Source: Selaginella tamariscina
Lineage: Eukaryota; Streptophyta; Lycopodiopsida; Selaginellales; Selaginellaceae
Length of the DNA: 64,000 bases
Direction of reading: 5' to 3'
NCBI GenBank assembly: GCA_003024785.1
Contig: PUQB01000101.1
Location: forward strand, 273,501 to 337,500
The notes under the pieces were generated by a model. The model had not been told where the DNA came from and made no database searches. It was given only the letters and a program-made list of their open reading frames with translations. Below, one piece after another: positions 10,690 to 50,154 of this stretch. Every line of letters begins with the position of its first letter. The first letter of the stretch is position 1. A program made the position numbers and the translations under genes.

Positions 10690-11526
10690 TTTTAAGAACT
10701 ACAGTTCAGGGATAGACACATGTTTGAAACGGGACCGGCTGTGTTCAAGCAAGTTCCACAAAAACTATAGCTGGTATACAAAGAAGTTCTCGATTACAGA
10801 TACTCCAGGCATAATATATGTGTGTATTAAGAATGAACCTGCTAAGTATATTTGAATTTATGTGGCCACGTGTGACATCTTTCAAGTTGTAATGGCAACA
10901 TAGAAACTAGAAATGGCAACATAAAAATTAAAATTCATACTTAGCACTTATTAAAATAATAGGCGCATAGGCCCATATCGCATAGGTCCCTAGATCGAAA
11001 CTAAGTTACGTCATACTGTTTAAGATACTAAATATGTAACACAGTAAGAGTGCCAAATTACTTTACAATTTATTTTTAGTTTACATTAATAAAATAATAA
11101 TAACATTATTAATAATAATTCTTAAGAAAAAATGTCTTAGTTAATTAAAGATTAATGGTAAGAAGTGTTGATAATGCACTCAAGTTTGATGGGTAGAATT
11201 AAGCTCTATAGTATATACCCTTAGTATATTATAATAAGAAATGTTTACTCTTATGAGTTATGCATATACAAAATTGTTTTGATGTAATAATATGAATGAG
11301 ATAAATTATGTACTCTACCATATTACCTCAATTATACACGCCAATTTTTATGGGCCTGTCAAAACGATGTTAAAGTTTAAATTCTTAAATCCTTAGAAAA
11401 ATAGCACATTTATATATAATATAGTGTTTATTTTACTTAAATGCCTAGAAATTTCTTATAAATCCTCGTGAATTTTAAATATTCTCTTTAAAACGTGTTC
11501 ATCTACTAAAGTTAATATTTATTTTC
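10690..11526. repeat. Repeat flank shared with 26.47-27.56 kb
   Basis: The part 10,690-10,860 is found inverted at about 27,410-27,560 (gggacaggctg/cagccagtccc region and the tatagtttttgtgg segment). The part 11,160-11,526 is found in direct orientation at about 26,470-26,868 (gataatgcactcaag, cttgtaaatcctcgtgaatt). No gene is seen. The mixed orientation shows that several nested insertions share this family. Confidence 0.6.
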
Positions 11527-12300
11527 AGCTGTGCAGTGACGATATTCAATATATATATGACTTGTATAACACTACTAAGGAATGACCCCCTTTTGCAACG
11601 AAAACTTTTGTTATATTAATTTAATGCAACGTAAATATCAATTTTAAGTTTGCAAAGTGTTATTTGGAACAGTGATTTATATTATTTAAATTTGCCACAT
11701 GTAAAGTTTGTTCAATTTAAAATTTTTTGTGAAGTCCAAAACGATAAATTTTCCTGTTGAAAAAAAATAAAATTACACAATAAATTTAATTTTAAGGTAT
11801 AGTAAGACTAGCGTTATCACTGTAGCCACTGGCTATAGGCTAGTTTGCATAATACAGCCCCTTTTTATTCCAACGTTATTTAGGAGGGATTTAAGATACT
11901 TAGTGTTATGATATGGAAAAAAATTAATGAAATAAATTAAAAAGAAAATCTAAATCCTTATTAAAAACTAGAAAATTAATTTTTTACGGTTAATGCATTT
12001 CTAAATTCACATAGTTTTTTTATTTAAATGCATTTGTGAATGGGTTTTTAGTGTATATTAATTATATGACAATTAAAAGAGTAAAAAAAATGTAGGTAAG
12101 AAACCTTGGGAATGTGAATTTTCCTTTTATTTTTACACATGTTATAAGGTGGGGGGCTACGTTAAAGAGCGTTATGCAAGTGTCCCACAGTGTAGATTAC
12201 TCTCTCCCATTGCTCTTGGCTACTCTCTCTCCACTCTTTTGACCCTTTCTAGCTTACTCATGGGTCTTCTTTTTTCATTTTTGTTTATTTTGATGGTTGG
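11527..12300 (+). repeat. Alternative 5' arm of GDSL unit 1
   Basis: Replaces GDSL exons 1-2 in this copy. Homologous to 23,240-24,050 and 49,640-50,155 (both inverted). It contains the stretch tagccactggcta (imperfect palindrome, about 11,835), aaacgataaattttcctgtt, and a segment with ctacgttaaagagcgttatg (about 12,157) that reads YASVPQCRLL and a hydrophobic tail. Homology with the GDSL-bearing arms starts exactly at ggtgatcaaact (about 12,299), which is the donor side of GDSL intron 2. Confidence 0.65.
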
Positions 12301-12384
12301 TGATCAAACTATTTTACATATTATACACATATACACTTATGCATATATACACACATGATGTATATATGTGTGGGGGTTTTGCAG

Positions 12385-13461
12385 AGTGAGGATATTCCTT
12401 TTGTCGGAACTGAAGTAGCAATTCACACACAGTCAGGGTCGCGATGCAGCAGAGAGCCTACATTTTAATCGAAAGAAATAACTTTATTAGTTACTTGGAG
12501 CAAAAGGAAAACTACACCCCGTTAAAATTCATGGACCTGTTCATTTTCACTATGGCCTTACAATTAGAGGTGACACACACACACACACAACGTATACATA
12601 TTGCAAATCACTCGTGTATGTCTGTTTGATATATGTATATGCATAATACATATTTATTCACATAATTCGAATGTGTTATGTGCTTGAGAAAATTATCAAA
12701 TTGGCCCTCTAGTTTTGTGAATTAGCAAATTGTCTTTAGTTTTTAAAAATTAACAAATTGGCCTTTAGCTTAATAATACACACACATGCAATACATTGTT
12801 TAAAGTTAAAATATATAACACAATGATAAATATATTGTTTAATGTTAAAATATATAACATTGCATATGTGTGTATTATTAAGCTGATTAATAACTCAAGG
12901 TTAATTTGCTAATTTTAAAAAACTAGAGGACAATTTGTTAATCTTATAAAATTAGAGAGCCAATTTGATAATTTTCCCTATGTGCTTTATATTATTATTG
13001 TGTAAATTATGTACGATCGACTTGTATATATTTATGTGGAACGTTGTATAATGCGCTCTCTAGGAGCCGCTAATAGACATGTTCTCTTTGAATACCCATT
13101 GTATGTGATGCATATATGTAATAGTCCAATACATGGTTATGTGTGCATATTTTCCTTTGTTTTCTGTTTAAAAACTTACTTTCTTATGTATCCAGGAGCT
13201 GTACCGACTAGGTGCCTGTGAGATGGTAGTCATTAGAGTCAATCCTTTGGAATGGGACTCAGTCCCAAACTATATGTTTATAAACGGTAACTCGACACAT
13301 ACATGTGTATACAGGAGTTTAACGTTATGATCAAGGAGTATAACAGTGCATTAAAAGTGAAGATTACATAGCTCAAGTAGGATCATGCTAACTTGGTTAT
13401 GACATTGTGTGATGTTTATATTTTAATTCTCTAGTAGCCTCCAAGTAACAATCGTCTTAGA
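12385..13461 (+). pseudogene. GDSL esterase/lipase copy 1 (exons 3-4 only)
   Basis: Plant GDSL hydrolases are secreted SGNH-fold esterases. Exon 3 (12,385-12,569, acceptor gcag, donor gtgaca) keeps NNFISYLEQKENYTPLKFMD and IFTMALQLE, matching the family's GSNDFI block and the following helix. Exon 4 (from 13,196) reads ELYRLGACEMVVIRVNPLEW, the LYxLGARK(x)VV block III region, then NGNSTHTCV. A one-base loss then shifts into FNVMIKEYNSALKVKIT and LCDVY. Exons 1-2, carrying the catalytic GDS and oxyanion parts, are replaced by the alternative 5' arm. The final exon with the catalytic Asp and His was not found. Intron 3 holds a MITE. Confidence 0.8.
12687..12978. mobile_element. Mutator-type MITE in GDSL copy 1 intron 3
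   Basis: Terminal inverted repeats based on GGGAAAATTATCAAATTGGC (left end slightly mutated) with matching AAT..GATAATTTTCCC at the right. The 9-bp flanks TATGTGCTT are identical on both sides. A 9-bp target duplication is the hallmark of Mutator-superfamily elements. The interior is AT-rich without coding capacity. Confidence 0.8.
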
Positions 13462-15355
13462 TACGTGTGCATGTGTATAAATATGTATAAGTTATTGTAT
13501 GTGTGTCTCTCTTGCAAACGTCTTGAATTTCTCTTTATTAGGGGGGTCAATCTTAAACCTTTTGAGGTGGATTTAATGAAATTAACTATGCTCAAATCCA
13601 CCAAATTTTTTATACCAAATCCATCAAATTTAGTGGATTTTAAAATTTATATATTTAAACGTGCATTTTTCCAAATCCACCGAAACATAAAAAATAGCAC
13701 ATTTCATTAAATTTGATGGATATTTAAAATCTGCAGCTCCGGAGGTGCATTTTTATAAATTTACTAAAATGTAAAAATGACAGATTTCATTTTGCACATT
13801 TTCTAAGATTGACCCCTTATTGTACTCTTGTTAAGGAAATAAGACTCTCCCTTTTTCCTTCACCTTATTGTGAATTTAAACATTTTCTTATTATTTTCTA
13901 AAATATATTTATGTGTATTGTACATATGCATACATGTTGTATATATATATATATATAAGTATTATATGGAAAGCTATTAAGTTTCCTTTTCAAATGACAC
14001 CACCCTTGATATCACCTAGTGATTCAATATATTCCTTTTTAAATTTTTTTAATACTGCGGGTATGAAGTCCAATGTTCAAGCTCCAACTCTTTTTTGCTT
14101 TGATAAGGTTGACACAATTATAACACACGCACATGCATATATACATTTTATTTTTGTTTTTACTAATGAATGTAAATCAAATTGCAAATCAGGTTTAAAA
14201 AGTTAGGATAACGGTTTGAAAGGTTAGGATAGTTTTAAAGGATCGCAAATGGGAATGGAAATGATTACTTCATTTGACTTATTAAAGTATGTCTTCACAT
14301 GTAAATTAATATCATATGTACATGCTAGTTGAAATGTAATGTATTATACTTCATAATATAACTCTAAATGTACGCATGTAGTTTTGATATGTATAATTAT
14401 ATATGTATTTATGTGTGTTCTATGTTATAAAAAATATTTTTGTAATATGCACCACCATTTCCAACTTTAAAACCAACAGCCCATGATTTACCCAGTTGTC
14501 GTGTGTTAATCATTGTCCAATTCAAAAACGTCTTGGAATAATACAACTAAAATGAATAAATCACCAACCTTAACATATTCCATATCCTATATTAGTCTTT
14601 TGGCATAACATTTAGTAGCATGTCTAAGTTCCAATTACATGCAACCACTTATGTAACCGAAACTTGGGCATGCCACTGATTGTTGTGTTGGAACATTAAT
14701 ATTAAAATGTGAAACATATTAAGATCGGTGATTTACCCTTTTTAATTATGTTACTTCAGAACATTTTTAAATTAAATAATAATAACACCTAGTAATTGGG
14801 TAATATCATAAGTTATCGATTATGAAATTAGAGATGATAATGTTTATTATAAAAATATTTCTTATATGCATTAATCATTATTTACATATAAGACACGTGT
14901 AAATACATACACAACCATATATATTAAACTTACACCTACACATGCACATATACATGTCTTAAAATTATATTATAATGTATAAAATGTTACTCCGACCAAC
15001 ACACACATATAATATTAATCTGTATATGGAGGTTTTACCTTAATAAGTTTAAGAGAGTCATCTCCATTTTCATTTCCAAGTCCTTCGGAAACCACCTTAA
15101 CTTCCTGAACTTATTTACAATTTGATTTATATTCATTAATAAAAACAAAATTAAATGTGTGTGTACATGTGTGTGTTATAATTGTGTCAACTTTATCAAA
15201 GAAGAGAGAATAGAGGCTCAAATAGTGAACTTGATACTTTACACAATATTAAAATTAACATTTAAAAAAAAAAAAAAAAACAAGTAATAGTGAGGATAAT
15301 GTTACTTAAAAAGGAGACCAAGTAGGAATTTAGGCTTTCCATATAATAACTATAT

Positions 15356-15406
<51 letters not shown>

Positions 15407-15690
15407 CACACACACACACATATATATATATATAAACCATAACATATATGTATACATACAACACAAATATATTTTAAAAAACAATAAGAAAATGTATAAA
15501 CTCACAAGAAGGTGAAAGGGAAGGGATAATCATTTTCCTAAGTAAGAGCCATAAGCCCTACAATAAAGAAAAATTCAAAACATTTACAAAAGAAATACAT
15601 ATACAACAAATTACACATATCTATACACATGCACACGTATCTAAAATATTTGGAGGTTGCTAAAAAATTAGAATATAAACATCATAATAA
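13462..15690. other. Tail-to-tail junction of GDSL copies 1 and 2
   Basis: Contains the symmetry centre near 14,645. For example, aatcaccaaccttaacatat (about 14,560) recurs in inverted, diverged form near 14,720. A tail with ttttcaaatgacaccacc near 13,990 is mirrored by the 15,300-15,560 region. It also holds TA, GA and CA microsatellites (15,352-15,432). The missing last GDSL exon should lie here, but nothing with a DACCG or HPT-type motif is readable. Confidence 0.6.
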
Positions 15691-17300
15691 TAATATAATA
15701 ACCAAATCAGCGTTATCTTGCTTTAGCTATGCCATCTTCACCCATAATGCACCATTATACTCTTTAATTTTAACATTCAACTCCTATATACACTTGTGTG
15801 CCAAGTTACCCTTTAGAAACAAATAATTTGGGACTAAGTCCATCCTAAAAGACTGACTTTAACGACTATCATCTTACAGCCACGTACAACTCTTAAATAC
15901 ATAAAAAAAAAGCTTTTAAAAAAAACAAAGGAAAAATATGCACACATAACCATGTATTGGACAATTACATGTATGCATCACATTGTACGTGGGTATTAAA
16001 AGAAGAACGTGCTTATTAACGCTCCTAGAGAGTGCGTTACACAACGTTCCAATATACACACACAGATATATATGTAAAATTATATATGTGTCTGACAGTG
16101 CAAGTCAATCCGTACACAACAGCAATAGAAAGCACATACGGAGAATTATCAAATTAGCCCTTTAATTTTATGAAATTATCAAATTATTTTTTATAACAAA
16201 TTAACCTTGAGTCATTAATCAACTTAATAATGCAATGTTATATATTTTAGCATTAAACAATATATTTATCATATATTTTAACTTTAAACAATGTATTGCA
16301 TGTGTGTGTGGGTGCATGTGTGTGTGATTATTAAGCTAAAGGCCAATTTGCTAATTTTCAAAAACTAAAAAACAATTTGCTAATTCATAAAACTAAAGGG
16401 CCAATGTGATAATTTCCCAAGCACATAACACATTCAAAATTATGTGAATAAATAGGTATTATGCATATGCATATATCAAACAGACATACACAAGTGATTT
16501 GCAATATGCATATGTTGTATGTGTGTGTGTCACCTCTAACTTAAGGCTAGAGTGAAAATGAACAAGTCTGTGAATTCTAACGGGGTGTAGTTCTCCTTCT
16601 GCACCAAGTAACCATTTCTTCCTATTGAAATGTAGTGTACTGATTGGGACATAAGGCTCTCTGCTACGTTGCGACCTTACTGTGCACGAATTGCTGTTTC
16701 AGTTCCGACATCTGCCGAATCTGTTCAGTAAAAAGAATCTCACCCTGCAAAGCCCCACACATATATACATCGTGTGTGTATATATACATAAGTGTATACG
16801 TGTATAATATATGTAACATAGTTTGATCACCAGCAATACTGAAATCTTATTAAGTCGTAATCGATTTCACAGAAAATGCCGGCTCCCACGGACGCTATGT
16901 TGGTAAGGTTAATTCCGCTAAGATATGGAGGCGGAAAGGGGAGTCCGACCTGAACAACTACATAAACGAACAAAGTAATAACAGGGATGGTAAAGAGACA
17001 CTTACCCAGACGATTGAGGCTCAGCCGTCCATTGATTAATCTCTTGGTTGGCCAATGCGTATCGAAATCCCCGCCGTATGACGGCAGATCGGCTCGGGAA
17101 GAGCCCTCCGGAAACAAATATTATTCTCAACATTTCATCACCGTATATGAAGAATACAGGTGTTTCTTCCGACCGCGGCTGCTACAGCGATTCGGAAGAA
17201 GACTAAAAAAGGCGCCATCAGCAACAGCAAAAACGAAGGATGAGAAGCAAAATCATGCTTTGAGATCCATAAGAAAGATAAAAAAGATCATTTTTTTTAC
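15690..17300 (-). pseudogene. GDSL esterase/lipase copy 2
   Basis: Exon 1 (about 17,260-17,006) reads SSRADLPSYGGDFDTHWPTK, then NGRLSLNRL, to a GTAAGT donor (17,000-17,005). Exon 2 (16,949-16,831) reads VGLPFPPPYLSGINLTN, then ASVGAGIFCEID, matching the family pattern LGLPxxPPYL...GVNFASxGAGI. Exon 3 (16,744-16,534) and a decayed exon 4 (start about 15,893) follow in order. This copy keeps the best exon 2. The GDS block region upstream of ADLPSYG is damaged. It faces copy 3 head to head across the 17,765 centre. Confidence 0.8.
16140..16418. mobile_element. Mutator-type MITE in GDSL copy 2 intron 3
   Basis: Same element as at 12,687 in inverted orientation, with flanks AAGCACATA on both sides (the reverse complement of TATGTGCTT). 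The shared target duplication shows that the insertion preceded the duplication of the GDSL units. Confidence 0.75.
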
Positions 17301-18270
17301 AAGAATACAGAACATTAATCCATAGATGCATCAAACGGAAAGAGCTAACATTGATTAAGGAACCCATCTTTACTAACTTATTTATGATGGTGCCATAACC
17401 TTTGGTGCCCAGCTTAAGACTTCTTGCTGCTCGAAACCCTATCCAATCCATGCTACCTGTTCAAGCAAAGAACATAGGTCATTCAAACAAAGTTCTAATG
17501 TGGTGAAAATAAGTAGAAAAACAAAAAAAATATTTGCATTTCATTTAAAGATTCAAAAAATCATTCTTTTGATCAAATATACAGCAAAAGATATTTTTTA
17601 GATTGAATAAAAACTAAAAATCATTAAGAAATACAAAAAAATGAAAAAAAAATGATGAAACAAAGAGAACTCAAGCAATAACATTAATTTAAACAAAATT
17701 TCTCTCCTTACTAATCTCTCTATGATGCATCACGTCTTATCTTCGAAATCCTATTCAATGAAACCTTATTCAACGAAGGTTTCGAGCAACAAGACGCAAT
17801 GCATCACAAAAAATTTAATAAGAAATAAAATTCTTATTTGAATCAATATTATTGCTTGAACTCCCTTCATTTCATTATATTTTCTTCATCTTTTTCATCT
17901 TTCTTATCAATTTTCAATTTTCATTCAGTCCAAAACATGTCTTTTGCCATATAATTGATAAAAAAATAATTTGTTTATCTCTGAATGGAATGCAGATGTT
18001 TTGTTGCTTTTCTACTTGTATTTCACGACATTAGACCTGCGCAGGCGGGGTTCAATGGGCATTGAGCAGCGGGGGCGGCTAATGCACCACCATCTTCGGC
18101 TTTGGGGCACTGGTGGGCAATGACCTATGGCGTGTGTTCTTCACTTGAACCGGTAGTGCGGATTGGATACGGTTTAGAACAGTAAAAAGTAGTGAGTTGG
18201 GCACCAAGGGTTATGGCACCATCACAAATAGGTTAGTAAGGATGGGTTCCTCGCGTGAATCTCCTTCCGT
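17301..18270. repeat. Head-to-head centre between GDSL copies 2 and 3
   Basis: Inverted repeat around about 17,765. The segments 17,380-17,460 and 18,130-18,260 (caccaagggttatggc, ggattggatac/agggttt, gatgcatc) mirror each other, as do 17,640-17,760 and 17,770-17,900. Direct relatives occur twice at 44,285-44,700. A short GC-rich stretch at 18,035-18,120 (cgcaggcggggttcaatggg) is unique to this copy. Confidence 0.65.
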
Positions 18271-19945
18271 TTGATGCATCTATGGATAGAAAAAATGATT
18301 TTTTCATCTTTCTTATGGGCGCTTCTCATCCTTCGTTTTTGCCTGAAATGCAGATGTTCTGTTGCTGACGGCACCTTTTCTGGTCCTCTTCTGAATCGCT
18401 ATAGCAGCCGCTGTCAGAAGAAACACCTTATAGGTGATGACTCACCTGTAAATGTTGAGAATAATAGCTGTTTCCGGAGGGCTCTTCCCCGAGCCGATTT
18501 GCCGTCATACGGCGGGGATTTCGATACGCATTGGCCAACCAGGAGATTAATCAATGGACGGTTGAGCCTCAATCGTCTGGGTAAGTGTCTCTTTACCATC
18601 CCTGTTGTTATTACTTTGTTCGTTTCAGATCGGACTCCCCTTTCCGCCTCCATAAGCGGCGTTAACTTTACCAACATAGTTAAAGGAGCCAATTTTGCGT
18701 CCATGGGAGCCGGCATTTTCTGTGAAATCGATTACGACTTAGTAAGATTTCAGTACTGCTGGTGATCAAATACTGTAATATATTATACACGTATACATTT
18801 ATGCATATATACACACACGATGTATATATGTGTGGGGGGCTTTGCAGGGTGAGAATATTCTTTTTACTGAATAGATTCGGCAGATGTCGGAACTGAAGCA
18901 GCAATTCGTACACAGTCAGGGTCGCGCGGAGCAAAGAGCCTTATGTCCAAATCAGTACACTACATTTCAATAGGAAGAAATGGTTACTTGGTGCAGAAGG
19001 AGAACTACACCTGTTAGAAGTCACGGACTTGCTCATTTTCACTCTAGCCTTACAGTTAGAGGTGACACACACACATACAACATATGCATATTGCAAATCA
19101 CTGGTGTATGTCTGTTTGATATATGCATATGCATAATACGTATTTATTCACATAATTTCGAATGTGTTATGTGCTTGGGAAATTATTACATTGGCCCTTT
19201 ATGCAATACATTGTTTAAAGTTAAAATATATAACACAATGATAAATATATTGTTTAATGTTAAAATATATAACACTGCATGTGTGTGTATTATTAAGTTG
19301 ATTAATGACTCAAGGTTAATTTGTTAATTTTAAAATCTAAAGAAATTTGCTAATTTTAACATTAAGAGGCTAATTTTATAATTTTCTGTATGTGCTTTCT
19401 ATTACTATTGTGTAAATTGTACGGATTAACTTGCATTGTCACAACATATATAAATTTTACATATATATCTGTGTATGTATATTAGAACGTTGTGTAACTG
19501 TTTAGGAGCCGTTAATAGTTACGTTCTTCTTTTAAATACTCACGTACAATGTGATGCATACATATAATAGTTTAATACATGGTTATGTGTGTATATTTCT
19601 CTTTCTCTTTTTTTTATTTAAAAACTTATTTTTTTATGTATCTAAGAGTCGTACGTGCCAGTAAAAGATAATCATTAAAGTCAGTCTTTTGGGATGGGAC
19701 TTAATCTTAATAAATTATTTATTTCTAGACATTAAAATCGGTCTTTTGGGATGAGACTTAATCTTAAAGTATTTATTTCTAAAGGGTAACTTGACACACA
19801 TGGAGTTTAATGTTATAATTAAGGAGTATAACGGTGCATTAAGAGTAAAGATGGTATAGCTTAAGCAGGAATACTGACTTGATTATCACATTATCACTGT
19901 GATATTTATATTCTAATTCTTTAACAACCTCCAAGTATCTTAGAT
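18271..19945 (+). pseudogene. GDSL esterase/lipase copy 3
   Basis: The most complete copy. Exon 1 (to 18,580) has a hydrophobic leader (MIFSSFLWALLILRFCLKC). It then has a block I remnant, GDDSPVNVENNSCFRRALPR, where the family has GDSxxDxGNN, then ADLPSYGGDFDTHWPTRRLI and NGRLSLN. Intron 1 is 18,581-18,628 (GTAAGT..TTTCAG, 48 bp). Exon 2 (18,629-18,761) reads SGVNFTNIVKGANFASMGAG. Exon 3 (18,848-19,061) begins GENILFTE, then a TAG stop, then IRQMSELKQQF. Exon 4 (about 19,647 on) is badly decayed but keeps FNVIIKEYNGAL-like sequence. The inserted Asp in GDDS and the internal stop argue against function. Confidence 0.82.
19177..19386. mobile_element. Mutator-type MITE in GDSL copy 3 intron 3
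   Basis: A shortened copy of the intron 3 MITE with flank tatgtgctt on both sides. Internal deletions reduce it to about 210 bp. Confidence 0.7.
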
Positions 19946-20194
19946 ACGTGTGCATGTATATAGATATGTATAAATTATTATAAGTGTATATCTTTTATAG
20001 ATGTTTTAAATTTTCTTTATTATAAAGGTTGTAACTCTTACTTAGGAAACATGATTATTCCTTTCTCTTTCACCTTCTTGAGTTTACACATTTTTTATTG
20101 TTTTCTAAATGTATTTATGTGTGTTGTATGTATGCATACATGTTATGTGTTTATATATATATGTATATATAAATTGTTATTATATAAATCATGT

Positions 20195-20226
<32 letters not shown>

Positions 20227-21783
20227 CTATATGAAAAAGTCTAAATTCCTAGAGTTTCTTTTTCAAGTGACATTATCTTCGTTATTATTTGTTCCTTTTT
20301 TAATTTTTTAAATGTTAATTTTAATATTATATAAAGTATTAGGTTTAGTGTTCGAGTTTCTTATTTTTTCTTCACTTAATAGGGTTGACACAATTATAAC
20401 ATACACATGCATATGCACACACGTTTTATTTTGTTTTTATTAATGAATATAAATTAAATTATAAATTAGGTTTGGAAGGTTCAAGTAGTGATTCGGGAGG
20501 TTCAGGTGGTGATTCGGGAGGTTTAGGTGGTTTTAAAGAATTTGGAAATGAGAATGGAGATGATCATTTCATTAAAATTATTAAAGTAAGTCTTCATATA
20601 TAGATTAATATTATATGTGCGTACTGGTTAGAGTGATATTTTATACATTATAATATATTTTAAGAAATGAAATTAAACATAAACATGTATATGTGTGTGT
20701 GTAGGTGATTTAATATATTATTGTATGTATTTACATGTGTTTTATATGTAAATAATGATTATACATATAAAAAATATTTTTGTAATAAACATTACTCTTT
20801 AGCTTCAAAATCGGTAACTTATGATATTACTTGACTATTAAGTGTTATTATCATTCAATTTAAAAATGTTATGAAATAACACGGTTAAAAAGGGTAAATC
20901 ATTAACCTTAATATATTTCATATTTTAATGTTAATGTTTTAACACAATAATTAATGGCATGTCCAAGTTCTGGCTACATAGGTGGTTGTATGTAACTAGA
21001 ACTTTAGGTATGTAATCGAAACTTAGTATGTTACTGAATGTTGTATTAAAAAATTAACATAGGATGTGAAATATTTAATGTTGGTGATTTATCCTTTTTA
21101 ATTATATTACTCCAGAACGTTTTTTAATTGGACGACGATTAACACTTAGTAACCGGGTGACATCATGAATTATTGGTTTGAAGTTAAAAATGGTGATGCA
21201 TGTTACAAAAATATTTCTTTATGTATTAATCATTATTTACATAAATATATATAAATATATACATAATTATATATATTAAAACTTACATCTACACATGTGT
21301 ACATATACATGTACATGTATTTTACAATCTCATCCCTTAGAATTATAATTATAAAGTATAATACTACATTCTGATCAGTACGTACATATGATATTAATTT
21401 ATATATAAATGTATATTTTAATAAGTTTAAGGAAGTAATCATTTCCATTTACATTTGCGGTCCTCTAAACCACCCCAGCCTTTAGAACCTGATTTGCAAT
21501 TTATTATATTCATTAGTAAAAACAAAAATAAAATGTGTCAACCTTATGAGAACAAGGAAGAGTCAGAAGCTTAAACATTGGACCTTATACCCCACACAAT
21601 ATTAAAATTAGCATTTAAAAGATTAAAGAAAGAATATATTAAATCACCAAAGTGATAGAGAGGGTGGTGTCTCTTGAAAAGGAGACTCAATAGGAACTTA
21701 GGCTTTCCATATAATTATATATATATATAACATACATTTGTATAATAATAAATATACATACATACATACTATATACATATACA

Positions 21784-21815
<32 letters not shown>

Positions 21816-22039
21816 TATTATATATATATAAATACAAACATGTATGCATACATATAATGCACATAAATATATTTTAGAAAACAATAAGAAAATGTGTAAA
21901 CTCACAAGAAAGTGAAGGGGAAAGGGACAGTTTTGTTTCCTGAGTAGGAACTACAAGCCTGCAATAAAGAGGAATTCAAAATGTCTGCAACAGAGATACA
22001 CGTACAATGGCTTACACATATTTATACACACACGTATCT

Positions 22040-23164
22040 AAGACGATTGTTATAAGGCTGCTGAGAATTGAAATATAAACATCACAGAATGTGATAACCA
22101 AGTCAATGTAATCCTACTTGAGCTATGTAATTTCACCTTTAATGCACTGTTATACTCCTTAATTATAACGTTAAACTCCTATATACACCTGTGTGTGTCA
22201 AACTACCGTCTATAAACATATAGTTTGGGACTGAGTCCCATACCAAAGGACTAACTCTAATACTATCATATTACGGGCACCCATTCGGTACAACTCCTGG
22301 ATACATAAGAAAATAATAAGTTTTTGAACATAAAACAAAGAGAAAATTGCACCATAACCATGTATTAGACTATTACATGTATGCATCACATACAATGGGA
22401 TGGGTATTCAAAGAAGAACATGCTTATTAGAGTCTCTTAGAGAGTGCATTACACAACGTTCCACATAGATATATATGTAGAAATTTATATATGTATGTGT
22501 GACAATGCAAGTCGATCGGTATATAATTTACACAATAGTTTAGAAAGTGGGAAAATTATTAAATTGGCCCTAATTTTATGAAATTAACAAATTGTCTTCT
22601 AGTTTTTTAAAATTAGCAAATTAATCTTGAGTTATTAATCCGCTTAATAATACACACATATGTATATTTTAACATTAAACAATATATTTTCATTGTGTTA
22701 TATATTTTAACTTTAAACAATGTATTGCATTGTGTGTGGGTGCATGTGTGTGTATTTTAAGCTAAGGCTAATTTATTAATTTTTAAAAACTAAAGAACAA
22801 TTTGCTAATTCATAAAACTAGAGGGCCAATTTGATAATTTTCCCAAGCACATAACACTTCGAACGATGTCGATAAATACGTATTATGCATATACATATTA
22901 TCAACAAACATACACGAGTGATTTGTAATATGCATACGTTGTGTGTGTAATGTATGTCACCTCTAATTGTAAGGCCAGAGTGAAATGAGCAGGGTCTGAA
23001 ATTTTAATGGGGTGTAGTTCTCCTTTTGCTCCAAGTAACTAATAAAGTTATTTCTTTCGATTAAAATGTAGTGTATTAATTTGGACATAAGGCTCTCTGC
23101 TGCATCGCGACCCTGACTGTGCATGAATTGCTACTTCAGTTCTGACAAAAGGAATATTCTCACT
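22040..23164 (-). pseudogene. GDSL esterase/lipase copy 4 (exons 3-4)
   Basis: Exon 3 runs 23,164-22,961 and exon 4 starts at 22,296 after a CAG acceptor, reading ELYRMGARNMIVLELVLWYG. This keeps the LYxxGAR core better than copy 1. As in copy 1, exons 1-2 are replaced by the alternative 5' arm (23,240-24,050). Stops and frameshifts are frequent. Confidence 0.78.
22549..22844. mobile_element. Mutator-type MITE in GDSL copy 4 intron 3
   Basis: Inverted copy of the intron 3 MITE (GGGAAAATTATT..GATAATTTTCCC). The right flank AAGCACATA is kept; the left flank is partly deleted. Confidence 0.72.
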
Positions 23165-23239
23165 CTGCAAAACCCCCACACATATATACATCGTGTGTGT
23201 ATATATGCATAAGTGTATATGTGTATAATATATGTAACA

Positions 23240-24050
23240 TAGTTTGATCACCATTCAGAAAATCAAAATAAACAAAAATGAAAATAGGAAGACCCATGAG
23301 TAAGTTAGAAAGGGTCAAAAGAGTGGAGAGAGAATAGCCAAGAGCAATGGGAAAGAGTAATCTACACTGTGGGACACTTGCATAACACGGCTCCTTAACG
23401 TAGCCCCCTTTATAACATGTATAATAAATAAAAAGAAAATTCACATTTCCAAAGGTTTCTTACCTATATTTTTTTAACTCTTTTTATTCTTTTAATTATT
23501 ATATAATTAATATATATTAAAAACCCATTCACAAATGCATTTAAATATAAAAAAATATGTTAATTCAAAAATGCATTAATCCTAAAGAGTTAATTTTCTA
23601 ATTTTTAATTAGGATTTGAAGTTTTTTTAAAATTTATTTTATTAAATTTTTTCTATATCATAACACTAGGTATCCTAAATCCTTCTTAAATAACATTAAA
23701 ATAAAAAGGGGTTGTATTCTGCAAACTAGCCTATAGCCAGTGGCTATAGTGATAAAGCTAGTCCTATTGTACTTTAAAATTAAATTTATTAATTTTTTTT
23801 CAACAGGAAAATTTATCGTTTTGGACTTAACAAAAAAAATTAAATTGAACAAACTATACATTACAACGTTGTGTTACATGTGGCAAATTTAAATAATATA
23901 AATCACTGTTCCAAATAACACTTTGCAAACTTAAAATTGATATTTACGTTGCATCAAATTAATATAGCAAAAGATTTCGTTGCAACCTTAGTAGTGTTAT
24001 ACAAGTCATATATATATTGAATATCGTCACTGCGTGTTTACATACAACTG
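23240..24050 (-). repeat. Alternative 5' arm of GDSL unit 2
   Basis: Inverted homologue of 11,527-12,300. It carries a nearly perfect 19-bp palindrome, CTATAGCCAGTGGCTATAG, at 23,731-23,749, which is decayed in the other two copies, next to ggggttgtattctgcaaact. The boundary near 24,050 coincides with the outer end of the giant palindrome. Confidence 0.65.
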
Positions 24051-24603
24051 ATCTTTGACAGCTAGATGTATTAAAATTGTACATAACTGTATAGATATAC
24101 ATAAAATACGCATTTGTATGCAATATATAAAAGGATAAGGTTGAGAATTAAGTTGTAGTAAACAAAATCAACTATATCCTAAGGCAGTGAGAACCGTTGT
24201 AAATGAGGAACAAGAAGCTGATCTAATAGGTTGACCCAAGGTTAAACCATGGCTTGGTTGGTGAGAAATAATAATGAATGTGTTAAGTGAACTTGAGAAG
24301 GTGTTTAGGATCAACAATGTAGCCATTCAAATTCCAATAGCTACCCCAAGTGATTCAAATAAATAGAGAAAGGATGGGGCTGACTATAAATAATCCACGC
24401 TTTGGTAAAAAGGCAAAATCTCTGGACAAGCATAAGAGAAGAGGTCAAAGAGGACGGGGAAACTCCAAACCAATTAGGCATAGAGCGAAGGTAACACTGT
24501 TCGAGTTGGGTTATAAACACTAGGGAGAGAAATACTGTGTGACATGCTCTCGTATCATATATGCTGTCGCCGACTAAGGTCAGCGTTGGATAAGGGAAGC
24601 TGC

Positions 24604-24790
24604 CGCGACAATGGAGCCAAACACTGCATCCAAGAATATAGGCGTGATCGTCGATGTCAAGGCGGCAAGGCCGACACAACAAACAATCATGGATGTACAA
24701 GGACCAGAGGAGATAATCTGCCCCCTGTGTAGTGGTCAGCACCCCCTTTATAGATGCCCTAAGATGAACCTATTGCTAGAGAGCCTGACC
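24604..24790 (+). pseudogene. Zinc-knuckle (gag-like) ORF, copy A
   Basis: The frame from 24,611 reads MEPNTASKNIGVIVDVKAAR, then MDVQGPEEIICPLCSGQHPL and YRCPKM. The C-x2-C-x3-H-x4-C arrangement resembles retroelement gag zinc knuckles, though with one residue fewer before His than the classical CCHC. Copy B (58,382-58,887) carries the same knuckle after a longer basic open stretch. No protease, reverse transcriptase or LTRs are visible, so a captured host zinc-knuckle exon is equally possible. Confidence 0.45.
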
Positions 24791-25541
24791 ATTCCTGCAG
24801 CACTTCTGTTGGCAAATAAGTTTAATTTATTTATACATGTTGTATGTAGAATTGTTTGTTATTCTTCTATATATTATATAGTTTAGTATATATATATATA
24901 TATATAAATATAATTTTGTTCTTTCACATGTAAAACTATAATATTTAAATTTAAAAAGTTTATTATTTTATTCTATATTCATTTTAAGAAAATATATTCA
25001 TAATCACAAATATATAATGCATTTACATTTTTTAACAATTTTTACATTTGGTAGTGTCTTAGAAACTTAAATATTTCCATTTAATTATTATGTTATTAGT
25101 TTTAATTTTTTATAACATTCTTTAATTATAACGATCAAATTCACCTATCTAAATATGTAGTATGCAAGGTAAGTGATCTCACGTCAAAGGCGAGGCATAA
25201 CAATACATTAACAACATGGAAATCGCATAAGAATCGGATTGATTATATAAAAATTCCATTTTGTAAAATAATTTAGCAGACACGTTTGTATATCCCTCAT
25301 TTCTGGTTCTTGAAACTGAACTACAGTAGGTTCCTAAAAATCCCTTATTTTTTAAATATGTAGAAAATCTGCATTTTTGTTCAGCGAGAAGATGAGTATG
25401 TGAAGAATCTGCATTGTCTGTTCAGCCAAAATCGCAGCTCGCATACAGAAGCGGCCAGGAAGAAGCGGCTTTGCACCGCTTTTGAGGAGCTCGAGGAGCA
25501 TCAAATACTATCCGAGTCCTTAATCCAATCAGTGTCTTCAG

Positions 25542-25893
25542 ATGGCTTGTACCAAGCAGACTGCTCGCATATCAGCAGGAGGCAAGGCGCCAAGGAAGCA
25601 GCTAGCCACGAAGGCAGCCAGGAAATATGCACCAGCAAAAGGAGGCGTGAAGACGAGTTCCGTGGTTATGTATGGGCTCCAAGAAGAAGCTCAAAAATCC
25701 TGTGGATATAAAGACTTAATTGGAGAACATGCTGAAGAATAACTTTGAAATCTGCCCAACGGAAGAGCTTGTGGAGTCGGTCATGTATTGTTCCCACGAA
25801 GTAGAGGATTTTGCGGTCGTGATTGTCACATCAGAACTCGTGGCGGAGCTTATCCTGGAAATTTGCGAGAGAACAGAAGAACTAGGGTAAACT
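25542..25893 (+). pseudogene. Histone H3-like tail fused to unknown domain, copy A
   Basis: The ATG at 25,542 gives [20 protein letters not shown] then [17 protein letters not shown], a histone H3 N-terminal tail (residues 1-36) with R2C, K9I, T11A, S28Y and T32K. The histone fold does not follow. Instead the frame reads KTSSVVMYG, and a 2-base loss relative to copy B (about 25,680) shifts it. The continuation in the other frame is [20 protein letters not shown], then HEVEDFAVVIVTSEL and ELILEICERTEEL. An open stretch rich in Glu and Arg lies upstream (25,400-25,540). A truncated H3 with an accidental tail is possible, but both copies keep the downstream frame with mostly conservative differences. 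Confidence 0.6.
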
Positions 25894-26015
25894 ACTCAGA
25901 ATAAAGAGAAACTTCCCCAAGAAAGAACCTCCCGCAGGTGAGTTATTTATAGGAAGTGTGGTACGTCTTTAATTTCAATTCTATATAAATTATGCACATG
26001 TGCCTATATATTATG

Positions 26016-26068
<53 letters not shown>

Positions 26069-26085
26069 TAGGTGAAAACAAAAGC

Positions 26086-27007
26086 CTAGGACATTAACAG
26101 TTTGTTTACACGTCCGTAATCATAAGCTGCATACTTATATACATGTCTTTGGAGACGATGCATGTCTTTTCTGTTACTTTCATAGAAATAACCAAGTTTA
26201 AAACTTGGGCGGATTCCAAAATCATTTACGTCAGAGGTATTTTAAACGAATGGGCAGAGACACACAAACTAAAGACGTATTTCAGGAGTATGCTTCAGGG
26301 ACTGATACAATATGCATATACATACATATACATGAATCGTATATATACGCATGTCTAAGATGCATGTGTGTGCGTGAATCAGACGTATAAATGTACAGGA
26401 AAGCGAACCGGTGAGAGAGGTGCACATTGTACCGAGAGCATCCTACATAGAGTTGAGTTGTCAAGCGGCTGGTAGCAGGTGCTGATAATGCACTCAAGCT
26501 TGATGGGCTCCATTTGTGTCTATAGGATATACCTTTAGTATATTATAATGGAAATGTTTACTCCTATAAGTTTGTTTAACAAAAGGCCAGGACGCAGACG
26601 ATATATTAATGCATATACACAAAATTGTTTTGATGTAATACAATATGAATAATATAACAACATATTACTCTACAGTATTTCAATTTTTATCGGCCTTTCA
26701 CGCGATGTTAAAATTTGTTCAGTTTCTTAAATGCTTGAACATTTATATATATATAGTGTTCATTTTATTTAAATGCCTAGAAATTTCTTGTAAATCCTCG
26801 TGAATTTTAAATATTCTCTTTAAAACGTGTTCATCTGCTAAAGTTAATATTTTTCTCAGCGGTAGGTTCCACATTCGTGTTCTCAACCTGGAGATTATTA
26901 TCCTTTTATATATTGCATACAAATGCGAATATCTATGCAGTTATGTACAACTTTAATACATCTGGCTGTTAAAGATCAGCTGTGTAAACACGCAGTGATG
27001 ATATTCA

Positions 27008-27046
<39 letters not shown>

Positions 27047-27665: not shown

Positions 27666-27734
27666 TGCTATCAACACACACACACGCCACACTTACAACA
27701 AACGCCGGTGTATCATACGTGTATGAATACAGGT

Positions 27735-27905
27735 GTTTGAGCTAATGAAGGCCTCGGAGTGCCGGCCCAATTATAAACCAGCTTAACAAGCGTGATCAAT
27801 TGATTTATCACTTTCAGAGTATGTAATAAAAACCTTTGGTGAGGACAGTGTTGCTCCTATTATTGGCCCTTTACCACCTTGCGGTAGGAGGCAGCCGGAC
27901 AACTA
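27735..27905 (+). other. Unidentified exon-like stretch in block I
   Basis: After a tacag acceptor the frame reads VFELMKASECRPNYKP, broken by stops, then EYVIKTFGEDSVAPIIGPLP. The start is faintly pentatricopeptide-like. The inverted copy at about 56,905-57,062 has lost about 34 bases inside this stretch. I cannot name the gene. Confidence 0.3.
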
Positions 27906-28182: not shown

Positions 28183-28189
<7 letters not shown>

Positions 28190-44081: not shown

Positions 44082-44699
44082 TTATTTTGATAAATTTTCT
44101 CCCTGAAGAATTTAACTTATGAAGGTGTTGTACTAGAAATATTGCATTTTAATCTCGAACTCAGGATCTGTTTGCATTTAAATCTGACAAAAGTGAAAAT
44201 CTATTATCAACGACTTTATTAAGGCCAGTTGGCATAATTAATCGCGCAGTTTATGCTTCACTACATTAGAACCTTGTTCTTATGAAGTGTGTTCTTCGCT
44301 TGAACAGGTAGCGCATTGGATAGGGTTTCGAGCGGCAAGACGCGATGCATCATGGAGAGTTTAGTAAGGAGCGGAATCTTTGTTTGAATCAATGTTACTG
44401 CTTGATCTCCCTCTGTTTCAGATTTTCGGTTTTCATTCAGTCCAAAGCATGTCTTTGCCGTATAGTTGATCAAAAGATAATTTGTTTTATCTCTGAATGA
44501 AATGCAGATGTTTTATTGCTTTTTTGCTTGTATTTCACGACATTAGAGCTTTGTTCTTATGGCGTGTTCTTGAACAGGTAGCGCGGATTGGATAGGGTTT
44601 CGAGCGGCAAGAAGCACCAAGGGTTATGGCGCCATCACAAATAGGTTAGTAAGGATGGGTTTCTTGCGTGAATCAATGTTAACTCCATCCGTTTGATGC

Positions 44700-46390
44700 A
44701 TCTATGGATTGATGTTCTTGTATTCTTGCAGAAAAAAGATCTTTTTCATCTTTCTTATGGATTCTCAAAGCATGTTTTTACTTCTCATCCTTCGTTTTTG
44801 CCTGAAATTCAGATGTTCTGTTGCTGACGCACCTTTTCTGGTCCTCTTCCGAATTGTTGTAGCAACAGCCGTCGGAAGAAACACCTGTATTCTTCATATA
44901 CGGTGACGAATCACCTGTAAATGTTGAGAATAATAGCTGTTTCCGGAGGGTTCTTCCCGAGCCGATCTACTGTCATACGGCGGGAGATTAATCAAGGGAC
45001 GGCTAAGCCTCAATTGTCTGGGTAAGTGTCTCTTTACCATCCCTGTTGTTATTACTTTGTTTGTTTATGTAGTTGTTCAACTCGGACTCCCCTTTCCGCC
45101 TCCATATCTTAGTGGCGCCAGCATGGTTAAAGGAGTCAATTTTGCATCCATGAAAGCCGGCATTTTCAGTGAAATCGGTTACGACTTGCAATATTTTTGG
45201 TGATCAAACTATGTTACATATATTATAGACAGTATACACTTATGCATATATACACACGATATATGTGTGGGGGCTTTGCAGGGTCAGAATATTTTTTTTA
45301 CCGAACAGATTTGGCAGATGTCAGAACTGAAGCAGTAATTTGTGCACAATCAGGGTCGCGACGTAGCAGAGAGCCTTATGTCCAAATCAGTACACTACAT
45401 TTCAATAGGTACTTTGCGCAGAAGAAGAACTACACCCGTTAGAATTCACGGATTTCACTCTAGCATTACAGTTGAAGGTGACACACACACATACAACATA
45501 TGCATATTGCAAATCACTCGTGTATATATGCATATGCAAATACGTATTTATTCACATAATTCGAATGTGTTATGTGCTTGGGAAATTATCTTTTGGTTTT
45601 ATGAATTAGCAAATTGTTCTTTAGTTTTTTTAAAATTAGTAAATTGGCCTTTAGCTTAATAATACATACACATGCACCCACACACACATGCAATACATTG
45701 TTTAAAGTTAAAATATATAACACAATGATAAATATATTGTTTAATGCTAAATTATATACTCAAGGTTAATTTGTTAATTTTAAAAAATTAGAAGATAATT
45801 TGTTAATTTCATAAACTTAGAGAACTGATTTGATAATTTTTCATATGTGCTTTTTAATACTATTGTGTAAATTATGTACGGATTAACTTGCATTGTCACA
45901 TATACATATATAAATTTTTACTTATATATCCGTGTGTGTATATTGAAACGTTGTGTAATACACTTTTTAGGAGCCGTTAATAGGCACGTTCTTTTATGAA
46001 TACCTATGTACATTGTGAGACATACATATAATAGTTCAATACATGGTTATGTGTGCATTTTATTTATTTTATTTATTTTTTTAATTTTTTTTCTGTTCAA
46101 AAACTTGTTTTCTTATGTATTTAGGAGCTTATTTTTTTTATGTATTTAGGAATTGTATTGACTAGGCGTCCATAAGATGGTAATCAAGTTAGTTCTTTAA
46201 GATAGGACTTAGTTTTAAATTATGTTTTTTTAAAAGGTAGTTTGACATACAAGTGTATATAGGAGTTTAATGTTGTAATTAAAGAGTATAATAGTGTATT
46301 AAGAATGAAGATTACATAGCTCAAGCTTGATTATTAAATTAATATTATGATATTTATAGTAATTTTTAAATAACAATCGTTTTAAATATG
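44700..46390 (+). pseudogene. GDSL esterase/lipase copy 5
   Basis: Exon 1 ends at 45,021 before GTAAGT. It keeps SPVNVENNS but has GDE where the catalytic GDS belongs, and a deletion of about 35 bases removes most of the GGDFDTHWPTRR segment. The intron 1 acceptor TTCAG has become TTCAA. Exon 2 (to 45,199) has an MVKGVNF-like stretch. Exon 3 (45,282-45,477) reads NIFFTEQIWQMSELKQ, a stop, then DVAESLMSKSVHYISIG, the best-preserved version of the SVHYISIG block. Exon 4 (from 46,150) is heavily decayed. Confidence 0.78.
45580..45842. mobile_element. Mutator-type MITE in GDSL copy 5 intron 3
   Basis: The intron 3 MITE again, with tatgtgctt on the left and atatgtgctt on the right. It is slightly shortened internally. 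Confidence 0.7.
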
Positions 46391-46645
46391 TGTGCATATG
46401 TATAAATGTGTAAGTTATTGTATGTGTATCTCTCTTGTAAATATTTTAAATTTTTTTTATTGTAAAGTATGTAATTCTTGCTTAATAAACAAGACTGTTC
46501 TTTTTTCCTTCACCGTCTTATGAATTTACACATTTTCTTATTGTTTTTTAAAATATATTTATATGTTTTATATGTATGCATACATGTTGTGCGTTTATAT
46601 ACATATATGTATATATATATATATTTGATATTATATAAACACATG

Positions 46646-46682
<37 letters not shown>

Positions 46683-47539
46683 ATTATTATATGAAAAACT
46701 TAAGTTTCTATTTGATTTCTTTTTTAAGTGACATTATTTTCATTATTACTTATTTCTTTTTAAATTTTTAAATATTAATTTTAATATTGTGTAGGGTATT
46801 AAGTTTAATATTCAAGCTTTTTATATTTCTTTCTCTTTATAAGGTTGACACAATTATAATACATATACACATGTACATATGTTTTATTAATTTTTTTATT
46901 AATGAATATAAATTAAATTGTAAATCAAGTTCGAAATGTTGAAATAATGGTTCAGAAAAGGTTTGAATGAGTCACGAGGATTTATAAATAAAAATGAAAA
47001 TAATCACTTTTTTAAATTTATTAAGGTAAATTATATATATAAATTAATATCATATATGCATGTTGGTTAGAATCTAATGTATATACATTATAATATAATT
47101 TTAAGAAATGAAATTGTAAAATACATGAATAATGTATATGTGTGTGTAGGTGTAAGTTTTAATATATATAATTGTATATGTATTTACATGTGTTTATATA
47201 TAAATAATAATTAATGTGTAAAAAATATATTTTTGTAATAGGCACCACCATCTTTTACTTTAGAATTGATAGTTTATAATATTACTCGATCATTGAGTAT
47301 TATTATCATTTAATTTAAAAATGTTCTAAGTAATATTGTTAAAAAGAAGTAGATTATCAATTTTAATATGTTTTACATTTTAATGTCAATGTTTTAGCAC
47401 AAGTAATTAGTGGCATACCTAAGTTTTCGGTTACATAAGTAGTTACATGTAATCAAACTTGGCATGTCACTAAATGTTATGAAAAAGACTAACATAAGAT
47501 ATAAAATATGTTAAGGTTGGTGATTTATCATTTTTTATT

Positions 47540-48640
47540 GAGTTGTATCAATTGGGTACTTATAGTATGGTAGTCGTTAAAATCAATCTTTTACGATGGA
47601 ATTCAATCCCAAATTATATGTTTCCAAATGGTAACTTGACACACAGATGTATATACGAGCTTAACATTACGATCGAAGAATATAACCAGTGTTTATTGTA
47701 ATTCTCCAGCAGCCTCCAAATAACAATTGTCTTAAATATGTGTGTATGTGTATAAATATGTATAAGTTATTATACATATATCTCTCGTAGTAGATGTCTT
47801 GAATTTCTCTTTATTACAAAGTTTGTAACTCATGTTCAAAAAAACATTAATATCCCTTTTCTTTTTATTTTCTTGTGAGTTTACATATTTTTTTATTGTT
47901 TTTTAAAATATATTTATATGCATTATATGTATGCATACATGTTGTGTGTTTATATATATATATATATGTATATGTATATTTGTTATTATAAATACATTAT
48001 ATATATATATATATATTTATATGAAAGCTTAAGTTCCTATTGAGTCTCCTTTTCAAATGACACCACCCTTATTATCACTTGGTAATAATATATTTCTTCT
48101 TTAATTTTTTAAATATTAATTTTAATATTGCACAGGGTATCATATCTAATATTGAAGCATCCAACTCTTTTTTATCCTGATAAAATTGATACAATCATAA
48201 CACATGCACACGCACATACATGTTTTATTTCTGTTTTTATTAATGAATATAAATTAAATTGTAAATCAAATTCAGAAGGTTAATATAATAGTTCGGGAAG
48301 TTCGAATTGTTTCAGAGGACTTGTAAATAAAAATGAAAATAATCATTTCCTAAACTTATTAAAATATATTTTTATATACAAATTAATATCATATGTGCAT
48401 ACTAATCAGAGTGTAATATATTATACATTATAATATAGCTTTAAAAAATAAAATTATAAAATACATGTACATGTATATATACGTGTGTGTAAATGTATGT
48501 TTTGATATGTATAATTATGTATGTATTTATGTATGTTCTATGTAAATAATAATTAATATATATAAATATTTTTATAACAAGCACCACCATTTTCAACTCT
48601 AAAATCAATAATTCATAATGTCACTCATCTATTTAGGTGT
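47540..48640 (+). pseudogene. Extra GDSL exon 4 and tail, duplicated in unit 3
   Basis: The start (attgggtacttatagtatgg, then gtcgttaaaatcaatctttt) corresponds to GDSL exon 4 from within its LYxLG codons, followed by the downstream tail region. It is in plus orientation and has no exons 1-3 of its own. It shows that the palindrome centre of unit 3 suffered a local duplication or unequal exchange. Confidence 0.6.
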
Positions 48641-48938
48641 TAATCATCGCTTAATTCGAAAACGTTCTAAAGTAATATAAATAAGAAAACAAGTTTTTGA
48701 ACAAAACACAAAGGGAAAATATGCACACGTAACCATGTAGTGGACTATTACAAGTATGCATCACATTGTACGTGCGTATTGAAAAGAAGAACGTGCCTAT
48801 TAGCGGCTCCTAGAGAGCGCATTACACAACGTTGCAATACACACACACACATATATATGTAAAAACTATATATATATGTGTGTGACAATGCAAGTCGATT
48901 CGTACTTAATTTACACAACGTTAATAAAGAGCACATAC

Positions 48939-49228
48939 GGAAAATTATCAAATTGGCCCTCTCATTTATGAAATTAGCAAATTGTTTTCTAGTTTTTTAA
49001 AATTAATAAATTAACCTTGAGTCATTAATCAGCTTAATAATACACACATATTTTTTAGCATTAAAGAATATATTTATTATTGTGTTATATATTTTAACTT
49101 TAAACAATGTATTACATGTGTGTGTACATGTGTGTGTATTATTAATCTAAAGGTCAATTTGTTATTTTTAAAAAACTAAAGAACAATTTGCTAATTCAAA
49201 ACTAGAGGGCCAATTTGATAATTTTCCC
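48939..49228. mobile_element. Mutator-type MITE in GDSL copy 6
   Basis: Inverted copy of the intron 3 MITE, flanked by agcacatac on the left and aagcacata on the right. Confidence 0.72.
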
Positions 49229-49374
49229 AAGCACATAACACATTCGAATTATGTGAATAAATATGTATTATGCATATACATATATCAAACAGACATACAT
49301 GAGTGATTTGCAATATGCATACGTTGTGTGTGTGTTTGTGTGTGTGTGACCTCTAATTGTAAGGCGTGTGTGAC

Positions 49375-49568
49375 CTCTAATTGTAAGGCCAGAGTGAAAA
49401 TGAGCAGGTCCATGAATTCTAATGGGGTGCAGTTCTCCTTATGCTCCAAGTAACCTATAAAGTCATTTCTTCCTATTAAAATGTAGTGTATTGATTTGGA
49501 TAAGGCTCTCTGTTGCATTGCGACCCTGACTGTGCGTGAATTGCTGCGATAGAAGGAATATTCTCACC
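49375..49568 (-). pseudogene. GDSL esterase/lipase copy 6 (exon 3)
   Basis: Exon 3 reads SKSIHYILIGRNDFIGYLEH, then KENCTPLEFMDLLIFTLALQ. It is the cleanest version of the SIHYxxIGxNDFI block among the copies. The donor region is duplicated in tandem (about 24 bases, 49,351-49,374). Exon 4 is missing because the rearranged centre cuts in before it, and exons 1-2 are replaced by the alternative arm (49,640-50,155). Confidence 0.78.
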
Positions 49569-50154
49569 CTGCAAAGTGTGTATACATGCATAAGTGTATA
49601 CGTGCATAATATATGTAACATAATTCGATCACCAACAAAAACCAGAAAAATCAAAATAAAAAAGAAAAAGAAAGTAGGAAGACCCGTGAGTAAGCTAGAA
49701 AGGGTTAAAAAGAGTGGAGAGAGAATATCCAAGAGCAAAAGGAGAGGAGTAATCTGCACTTGCATAACACGGTCCTTAACGCAGCCCCTCTGTGTATAAC
49801 AAATATAATGAAATTCACATTTACATTAATTCCCATGGGTTTCTTACCTATTTTTTTAAATTCTTTTTTTTATTTTAATTGTCATATAATTAATATACAT
49901 TAAAAACCTATTCACAAATGCATTTAAATAACAAATATGTTAATTCAGAAATGCATTAACCCTAAATATAGTTTTCAATAAGAATTTGGATTATTTTTTT
50001 AATTATCCTTCCTAAATAATATTGGGGGCTGTATTCTGCAAACTAGCTCTGCATTGGCTATAATGATAACACTAGTTTTACTGTACCTTAAATTAAATTT
50101 ATCGTGTATTTTATTTTTCTTTCAAACAAGAAAATTTATCGTTTTGGACTTAAC

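Follow-up and report, generated by a model that had tools for sequence, protein, structure and literature searches.

A nested palindrome of decayed GDSL lipase copies in Selaginella tamariscina, probably built by repeated fold-back

Introduction

In the genome of Selaginella tamariscina, a dead lipase gene appears to have been copied backwards onto itself at least twice, and the turning points keep the order and direction of the steps. The resulting nested inverted duplication is real and old, and it is larger than was described in an earlier reading made from the letters of the DNA (hereafter, the sequence-only reading). The window analyzed here is the whole stretch of 64,000 nucleotides, positions 273,501-337,500 of contig C14 in a draft genome of 300.7 Mb and 1,391 contigs. 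We consider it probable that the full structure goes back to a founding fold-back that made one inverted pair of gene copies, a copy of that pair nearby (arms E and F), and a later fold-back of the first pair, AB, that gave the four arms A, B, C, and D.

The palindrome and its six arms

Self-BLAST of the window gave inverted matches centered at ~14,654, ~17,764, and ~21,000. Reading base by base put the loop centers at 14,645, 17,765, and 20,985, which is where the symmetry centers had been drawn in the sequence-only reading. The + - + - order and the nested 12.5-kb inverted repeat that it described were borne out by the inverted matches. Its four GDSL copies are present and alternate in orientation, but they are not the whole set. 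Six arms made of GDSL-lipase pseudogenes lie in the window, namely A+ B- C+ D- (11,533-24,033) and a third inverted pair, E+ F- (44,155-50,154), with its center read base by base at ~47,441 (Table 1). According to our own reading of the bases, the loops at the three A-D centers are 10, 26, and 10 nt long. The strongest inverted self-match joins A and D, with 2,129 aligned columns at 84% and 2,321 bits, as against a best inverted match of 56.3 bits (mean 35.9) in 20 dinucleotide shuffles of 11,001-24,500. The pattern is thus not one of short local inverted matches alone, the case that had been named as fatal to the proposal.

Table 1. Features of the palindrome, the second pair, and their immediate flanks (window coordinates)
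Feature	Position	Strand	Description
Block X remnant outside arm A	11156..11532	+	Matches 26,470-26,863, 73%
Arm A, type 1	11533..14640	+	5' part (~750 bp) of different origin, followed by GDSL exons 3-4 and AT-rich tail
A-B center loop	14641..14650	+	Flanked by TTACAT and ATGTAA; junction common to the other two tail-tail centers
Arm B, type 2	14651..17751	-	Upstream region, exon 1-4 remnants, tail
B-C center loop, 26 nt	17752..17777	-	Matches arm E upstream sequence when read in the B direction
Arm C, type 2, sister of B	17778..20979	+	Exon 1-4 remnants
C-D center loop	20980..20989	-	A-B junction reversed; ~20 nt extra sequence beside loop
Arm D, type 1, sister of A	20990..24033	-	Exons 3-4
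Block X remnant outside arm D	24010..24138	-	Matches 27,014-26,898, 85%
Arm E, type 2, second pair	44155..47436	+	Exon 2-4 remnants
E-F center loop	47437..47446	-	Founding junction, oriented as C-D
Arm F, type 1	47447..50154	-	Inner 1.15 kb (47,540-48,687, including exon 4) inverted in place

The likeness between arms is ~70-90%, varying by region, which corresponds to a divergence of 10-30%. The arms are not near-identical, so the palindrome is old. This divergence also bears on whether the structure could be an artefact of assembly or amplification. Artificial palindromes are known after whole-genome amplification, as the available part of one study describes (PMC6218980), but chimeras of this kind should presumably have near-identical arms. 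In addition, arm A carries a private dispersed insert of ~290 bp (13,530-13,825) that also occurs on other contigs and has no match in the other five arms among the matches listed. An artefact is therefore scarcely conceivable.

Relationship of the arms to GDSL lipase genes

The search of the genome gave as closest relative a GDSL gene on contig C604, with a 99.6% identical stretch on C809. With the exon 4 peptide of this gene as query (E <= 1e-10), agreement was 100% on C604 and C809 and 35-48% on five other contigs; on C14, the match fell in arm A, at 55% and with three stops. When its five exon peptides were joined, the gene scored 100.6 bits against the GDSL family profile PF00657. In an exon-by-exon search (E <= 0.01), B and C yielded parts of exons 1-4, E of exons 2-4, and A, D, and F of exons 3-4. 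In the same search, exon 5 was found in none of the six arms, and exons 1-2 were not found in A, D, and F. Several of the exon matches are interrupted by stops. The matches to the C604 gene also extend between exons, so the arms look like unprocessed, decayed pseudogenes. Directly, the profile did not reach them: the 164-aa frame of arm C, the sole arm frame tried, had no Pfam match, and none of the 116 PF00657 matches among those listed for the genome (best 150 of 247 candidates) lies on C14. It is by way of the C604 gene that the arms are related to the PF00657 family, as decayed relatives of it.

The 5' parts of the arms (alignment columns below 1,250) fall into two types. A, D, and F have in common a ~750-bp 5' part that differs from that of the other arms, and those of B, C, and E are alike, whereas A and B agree at 36-47%. 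The palindrome therefore runs type 1 +, type 2 -, type 2 +, type 1 -. Another dispersed element, at 12,688-12,978 in arm A, is matched in all six arms and has no match in the 10-kb C604 stretch, which indicates that it was inserted before the first fold-back.

The surrounding region

The palindrome lies within a ~95-kb stretch that holds other locally duplicated and inverted segments. For example, segments X (24,157-28,900) and Y (34,650-38,598) are both amplified on this contig: further copies lie at 52-61 kb and, outside the window, at C14:353-379k. Off C14, they have partial matches only, among the candidates listed (best 40 of 189 and best 40 of 59). The copy at C14:365-379k is in reverse orientation and is without a 3.3-kb insert that carries a DDE transposase remnant. 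Within X, the part at 26,470-27,190 is inverted in place when compared with either the C582 locus or the distant copy. Y is inverted relative to X at 52-59 kb, and remnants of X lie at the outer ends of A and D. Little related sequence was found in the 20 kb to the left of the window or in the readable right side up to C14:357,500; on that side, the 5,000 bases next to the window read N.

Given these neighbors, the arms might be the long inverted repeats of a mobile element that captured GDSL fragments. The arms do hold dispersed elements, and the DDE transposase remnant lies close by, at 29,969-31,080. But the transposase sits in the very insert that is missing from the C14:365-379k copy, and among the candidates listed (best 39 of 408 and best 40 of 701), C14 alone has the whole unit, the matches elsewhere consisting only of the GDSL relative and short dispersed inserts. 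We find this origin hard to credit.

Junctions and loop directions

Fold-back is recognized by a short single-copy loop between inverted copies, and such loops were found at all the centers (10 nt at three of them and 26 nt at B-C). The A-B, C-D, and E-F centers, at which arms meet tail to tail, have one junction in common, consisting of TTACAT, a 10-nt asymmetric loop, and ATGTAA. In the C-D junction, one base is changed on either side of the loop's stem and ~20 nt of extra sequence lies alongside, with the asymmetry kept. A junction common to all three centers points to a single fold-back that founded all three pairs.

Since the loop is asymmetric, its direction can be compared between centers. 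The A-B junction aligns better with the reverse of C-D (score 92, against 61 forward) and with the reverse of E-F (110 against 68), whereas C-D and E-F align better in the same direction (84 forward, 58 reversed). Thus, CD and EF are reversed relative to AB. The 6-bp stem formed by TTACAT and ATGTAA is inseparable from duplicated arm sequence, because the founding junction has no unduplicated relative against which stem and arms could be distinguished.

The fourth center, B-C, is of another kind. In the B direction, 21 of 25 aligned bases of its 26-nt loop agree with the stretch of arm E immediately upstream of the turning point, as good a match as none of 2,000 shuffles gave, and 17 of 26 agree with the C604 gene (1 of 2,000 shuffles did as well). 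In the C direction, the loop matches neither arm E (1,106 of 2,000 shuffles as good) nor the C604 gene (245 of 2,000). The loop is native in the B direction only. B therefore continues into its own upstream sequence before the turn, and C starts past the loop, as in a fold-back, in which the loop is native to and contiguous with one arm. The inverted microhomology at the B-C boundary is ~2 bp by eye, after divergence.

The B-C loop bears on a rival explanation, in which a copy of AB was re-inserted in reverse beside the original by end joining and there was no fold-back at 17,765. The several locally duplicated and inverted blocks of the region speak for it, and pair EF is evidence that pairs do get copied at a distance. 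However, such an insertion gives no reason why the copies should meet within 26 nt of one native upstream position, nor why those 26 nt should be B's own upstream sequence, which is predicted by fold-back and not by chance insertion. For these reasons, we consider inverted re-insertion unlikely.

Order of duplication

The alignment of the arms and the tree that the sequence-only reading proposed were carried out, and the sisters turned out to be A with D and B with C. For the four arms A-D, 160 quartet sites are informative, of which 117 group AD/BC, 27 AC/BD, and 16 AB/CD. By region, AD/BC accounts for 60 of 72 sites in the heads and 57 of 88 in the tails, AC/BD for 7 and 20, and AB/CD for 5 and 11. 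With transversions only, the counts are 21, 1, and 0, respectively. Unrooted trees of heads and of tails separate ((A,D),F) from (E,(B,C)) with bootstrap values of 81-100, and transversion-only trees have the same shape (63-98), with the BCE clade at 63% in tails and 85% in heads. On the tree rooted with the C604 gene, support is 99.5/99 for AD, 93/92 for BC, and 94.6/97 for BCE. The placement of F with A and D is weak on this tree (67/61); F nonetheless carries the A/D-type 5' part. Sister arms are thus symmetric about the newest center, as expected of a fold-back there. The 43 of 160 sites that conflict with AD/BC are mainly transitions, which suggests C-to-T homoplasy or some conversion between arms.

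Two other histories were rejected. A separate origin of palindromes AB and CD does not agree with the mere 16 of 160 sites for AB/CD or with the common junction. That the tail of F is a tandem copy of the tail of E is not supported by the tails tree, which splits B, C, and E from A, D, and the F tail at 98% (63% with transversions alone); the match of F to D reflects the in-place inversion.

These counts also address a simpler route to alternating arms, in which one fold-back made AB and the pair was then duplicated in tandem or by rolling circle to ABAB. By this route, a single inversion event suffices and + - + - still results, so the sequence-only reading overstated the case when it denied that simple segmental duplication produces such a pattern. 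But tandem or rolling copying would make A and C sisters, as well as B and D, and would leave all loops in one direction. Neither is seen: the loops are opposed, AC/BD is far behind AD/BC, and the arm types run 1-2-2-1. Rolling amplification, one of the routes that had been suggested, is likewise not supported. Tandem duplication of the pair is ruled out here solely by arm types, loop directions, and quartet counts, and we regard it as highly improbable.

Origin-dependent inverted-repeat amplification (ODIRA) has to be weighed on the same evidence. According to this model, hairpins at both ends give a closed molecule, which is replicated and re-integrated. As the available text of PMC4689423 describes it, ODIRA amplicons have alternating orientation and short-loop inverted junctions at both ends of the unit, and both are found here. 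However, in that text, one event gives an inverted triplication off one template with copies of equal age, whereas here there are four arms, two age classes, opposed loops, and two arm types. Equal divergence of the four arms would have favored ODIRA and was not found, and tandem insertion of a dimer should leave the loops in one direction. We consider ODIRA very unlikely.

Mutation pattern

Per site, singleton C-to-T and G-to-A changes outnumber the reverse changes ~3-5-fold in the alignments of the upstream regions (type-1 upstream part excluded), heads, and tails. The transition/transversion ratio is 2.4-4.7 in tails and 1.4-3.8 in heads. Among the controls, two parts of block X have ratios of 1.1 and 2.0, and two parts of block Y have ratios of 2.6 and 3.0. 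Because the control ratios overlap those of the arms, methylation-driven decay as a mark specific to the palindrome was set aside.

Proposed mechanism

Of the routes offered in the sequence-only reading, repeated inverted duplication with fold-back priming is the one supported by the short loops, the single founding junction, the AD/BC sisters, and the B-native loop at B-C. The starting point would have been a 3'-truncated copy of a GDSL-lipase gene with the dispersed insert already aboard. A broken or stalled 3' end may then have snapped back over the 10-nt loop in the AT-rich tail and been copied, producing an inverted pair, which would later have been duplicated close by as pair EF. Finally, in a later fold-back over the 26-nt loop in the upstream region, the AB pair would have been copied in reverse to give A, B, C, and D. 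A second fold-back of the whole AB pair about 17,765 fits both the loop directions and the AD/BC grouping. The arms, the common junction, the loop directions, the native 26-nt loop, and the branching order are directly observed, and from them we infer hairpin-primed synthesis as the chemistry, a prior break, and the route to EF.

Events of this kind have been described elsewhere. In yeast, fold-back inversions are mediated by single-stranded DNA hairpins with stems down to 4 bp, and two cases involved two sequential hairpins, as reported in the accessible portion of PMC7467729. Human inverted duplications have single-copy spacers of 766-70,466 bp, and 13 of the 21 junctions that were sequenced show inverted microhomology of 2-8 bp (PMC3907307, from the part available). 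Like the yeast and human cases in these texts, the Selaginella structure has inverted copies around a single-copy loop. Unlike them, it is old, interstitial, and nested, it contains its founding junction three times, and its loops are far shorter than the human spacers.

The hairpin-RNA question

Hairpin RNAs can arise from long inverted repeats, and the paired arms were examined with this in mind. Perfectly paired 21-mers number 206 of 3,099 for B-C and 269 of 3,093 for A-D (low-complexity words left out), and none of these is an exact match to the C604 exon parts. Within two mismatches of a C604 exon part, there are at most 16 of 206 for B-C and at most 3 of 269 for A-D, and 0 of 37, 0 of 37, and 0 of 44 for A-B, C-D, and E-F, respectively. 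These counts would speak neither for nor against a putative hairpin-RNA role.

In teosinte, the hairpin Tpd1 of Teosinte Pollen Drive targets a GDSL lipase gene (PMC11390486, as far as its available text goes). Both systems involve a GDSL lipase and a long inverted repeat in a plant; compared with Tpd1 as presented there, the repeat in Selaginella is built from lipase pseudogenes, its arms are 10-30% diverged, and it is known from sequence alone. The inverted-duplication model of plant miRNA origin (PMC3237417) likewise concerns, by its title, inverted duplication of gene sequence, whereas the arms here are kilobases long and decayed. It could be imagined that the ~95-kb stretch is a recurrent germline hotspot of fold-back, struck repeatedly in a short time, and that the GDSL repeats made or make hairpin siRNAs against the C604 gene in the manner of Tpd1, but we would give this combined proposal only a very slight chance.

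Significance of the palindrome

No function is needed to explain the palindrome. It is the plain relic of an already known type of DNA copying error, and nothing so far points to a function. Among the open-licence papers listed, no title describes a comparable nested palindrome from a plant. The fold-back studies cited above deal with events caught soon after they happened, in yeast selections and in patients, whereas here an old fold-back has been retained in a plant genome, with its junction kept in three copies and then folded again. Because the junction was copied three times and refolded, its asymmetric loop can be used as a direction marker. With such a marker, fold-back can be separated from tandem and rolling models by sequence alone, and the same approach is usable on other old palindromes.

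Duplicated neighbours of the arms

The arms (six GDSL-lipase pseudogene copies, window 11,533-24,033 and 44,155-50,154) are accompanied on their contig, C14, by other duplicated segments, among them blocks X and Y, whose positions are listed in the table together with those of the Pfam-annotated features. Block Y carries tandem arrays with units of about 96 bp and about 115 bp. Parts of block X match a locus on another contig of the same draft genome (C582:979,377-981,083), and a 0.7-kb piece of the block (window 26,470-27,190) sits inverted in place when compared with either C582 or the distant C14 copy. Reading of the frame suggests histone-H3-like fragments in block X; Pfam gave no hit for them. 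The insert with the transposase remnant is absent from the C14:365-379k copy. Towards one end of the window, diverged direct repeats are clustered at 4,220-6,194.

Coordinates of features in the window and on C14
Feature	Position	Remark
Leucine-rich-repeat gene fragment	window 1,338-2,499	Pfam; near one window end
Block X	window 24,157-28,900	amplified on C14
Block X, further copy	window 55,943-59,021	
Block X, distant copy	C14:371,602-378,833	beyond the window
Insert with transposase remnant	window 29,390-32,695	DDE_Tnp_4 / HTH_Tnp_4 (Pfam; HTH_Tnp_4 match under Pfam's cut-off)
Block Y	window 34,650-38,598	one of three copies on C14
Block Y, second copy	window 51,433-55,942	
Block Y, third copy	C14:365,156-368,846	
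Family-38 glycosyl hydrolase, C-terminal part	window 62,999-63,910	Pfam; near other window end

Sequence divergence of the arms and their nearest relative

The nearest relative of the arms that was found, a GDSL gene, is represented by stretches on contigs C604 and C809 (L004 and L005), which share 99.6% identity and are perhaps two haplotypes of one locus. Among the six arms, singleton C-to-T and G-to-A changes occur at a per-site frequency approximately 3-5 times that of the reverse changes. In 13 of the 15 arm pairs, the tails have a higher transition/transversion ratio than the heads.
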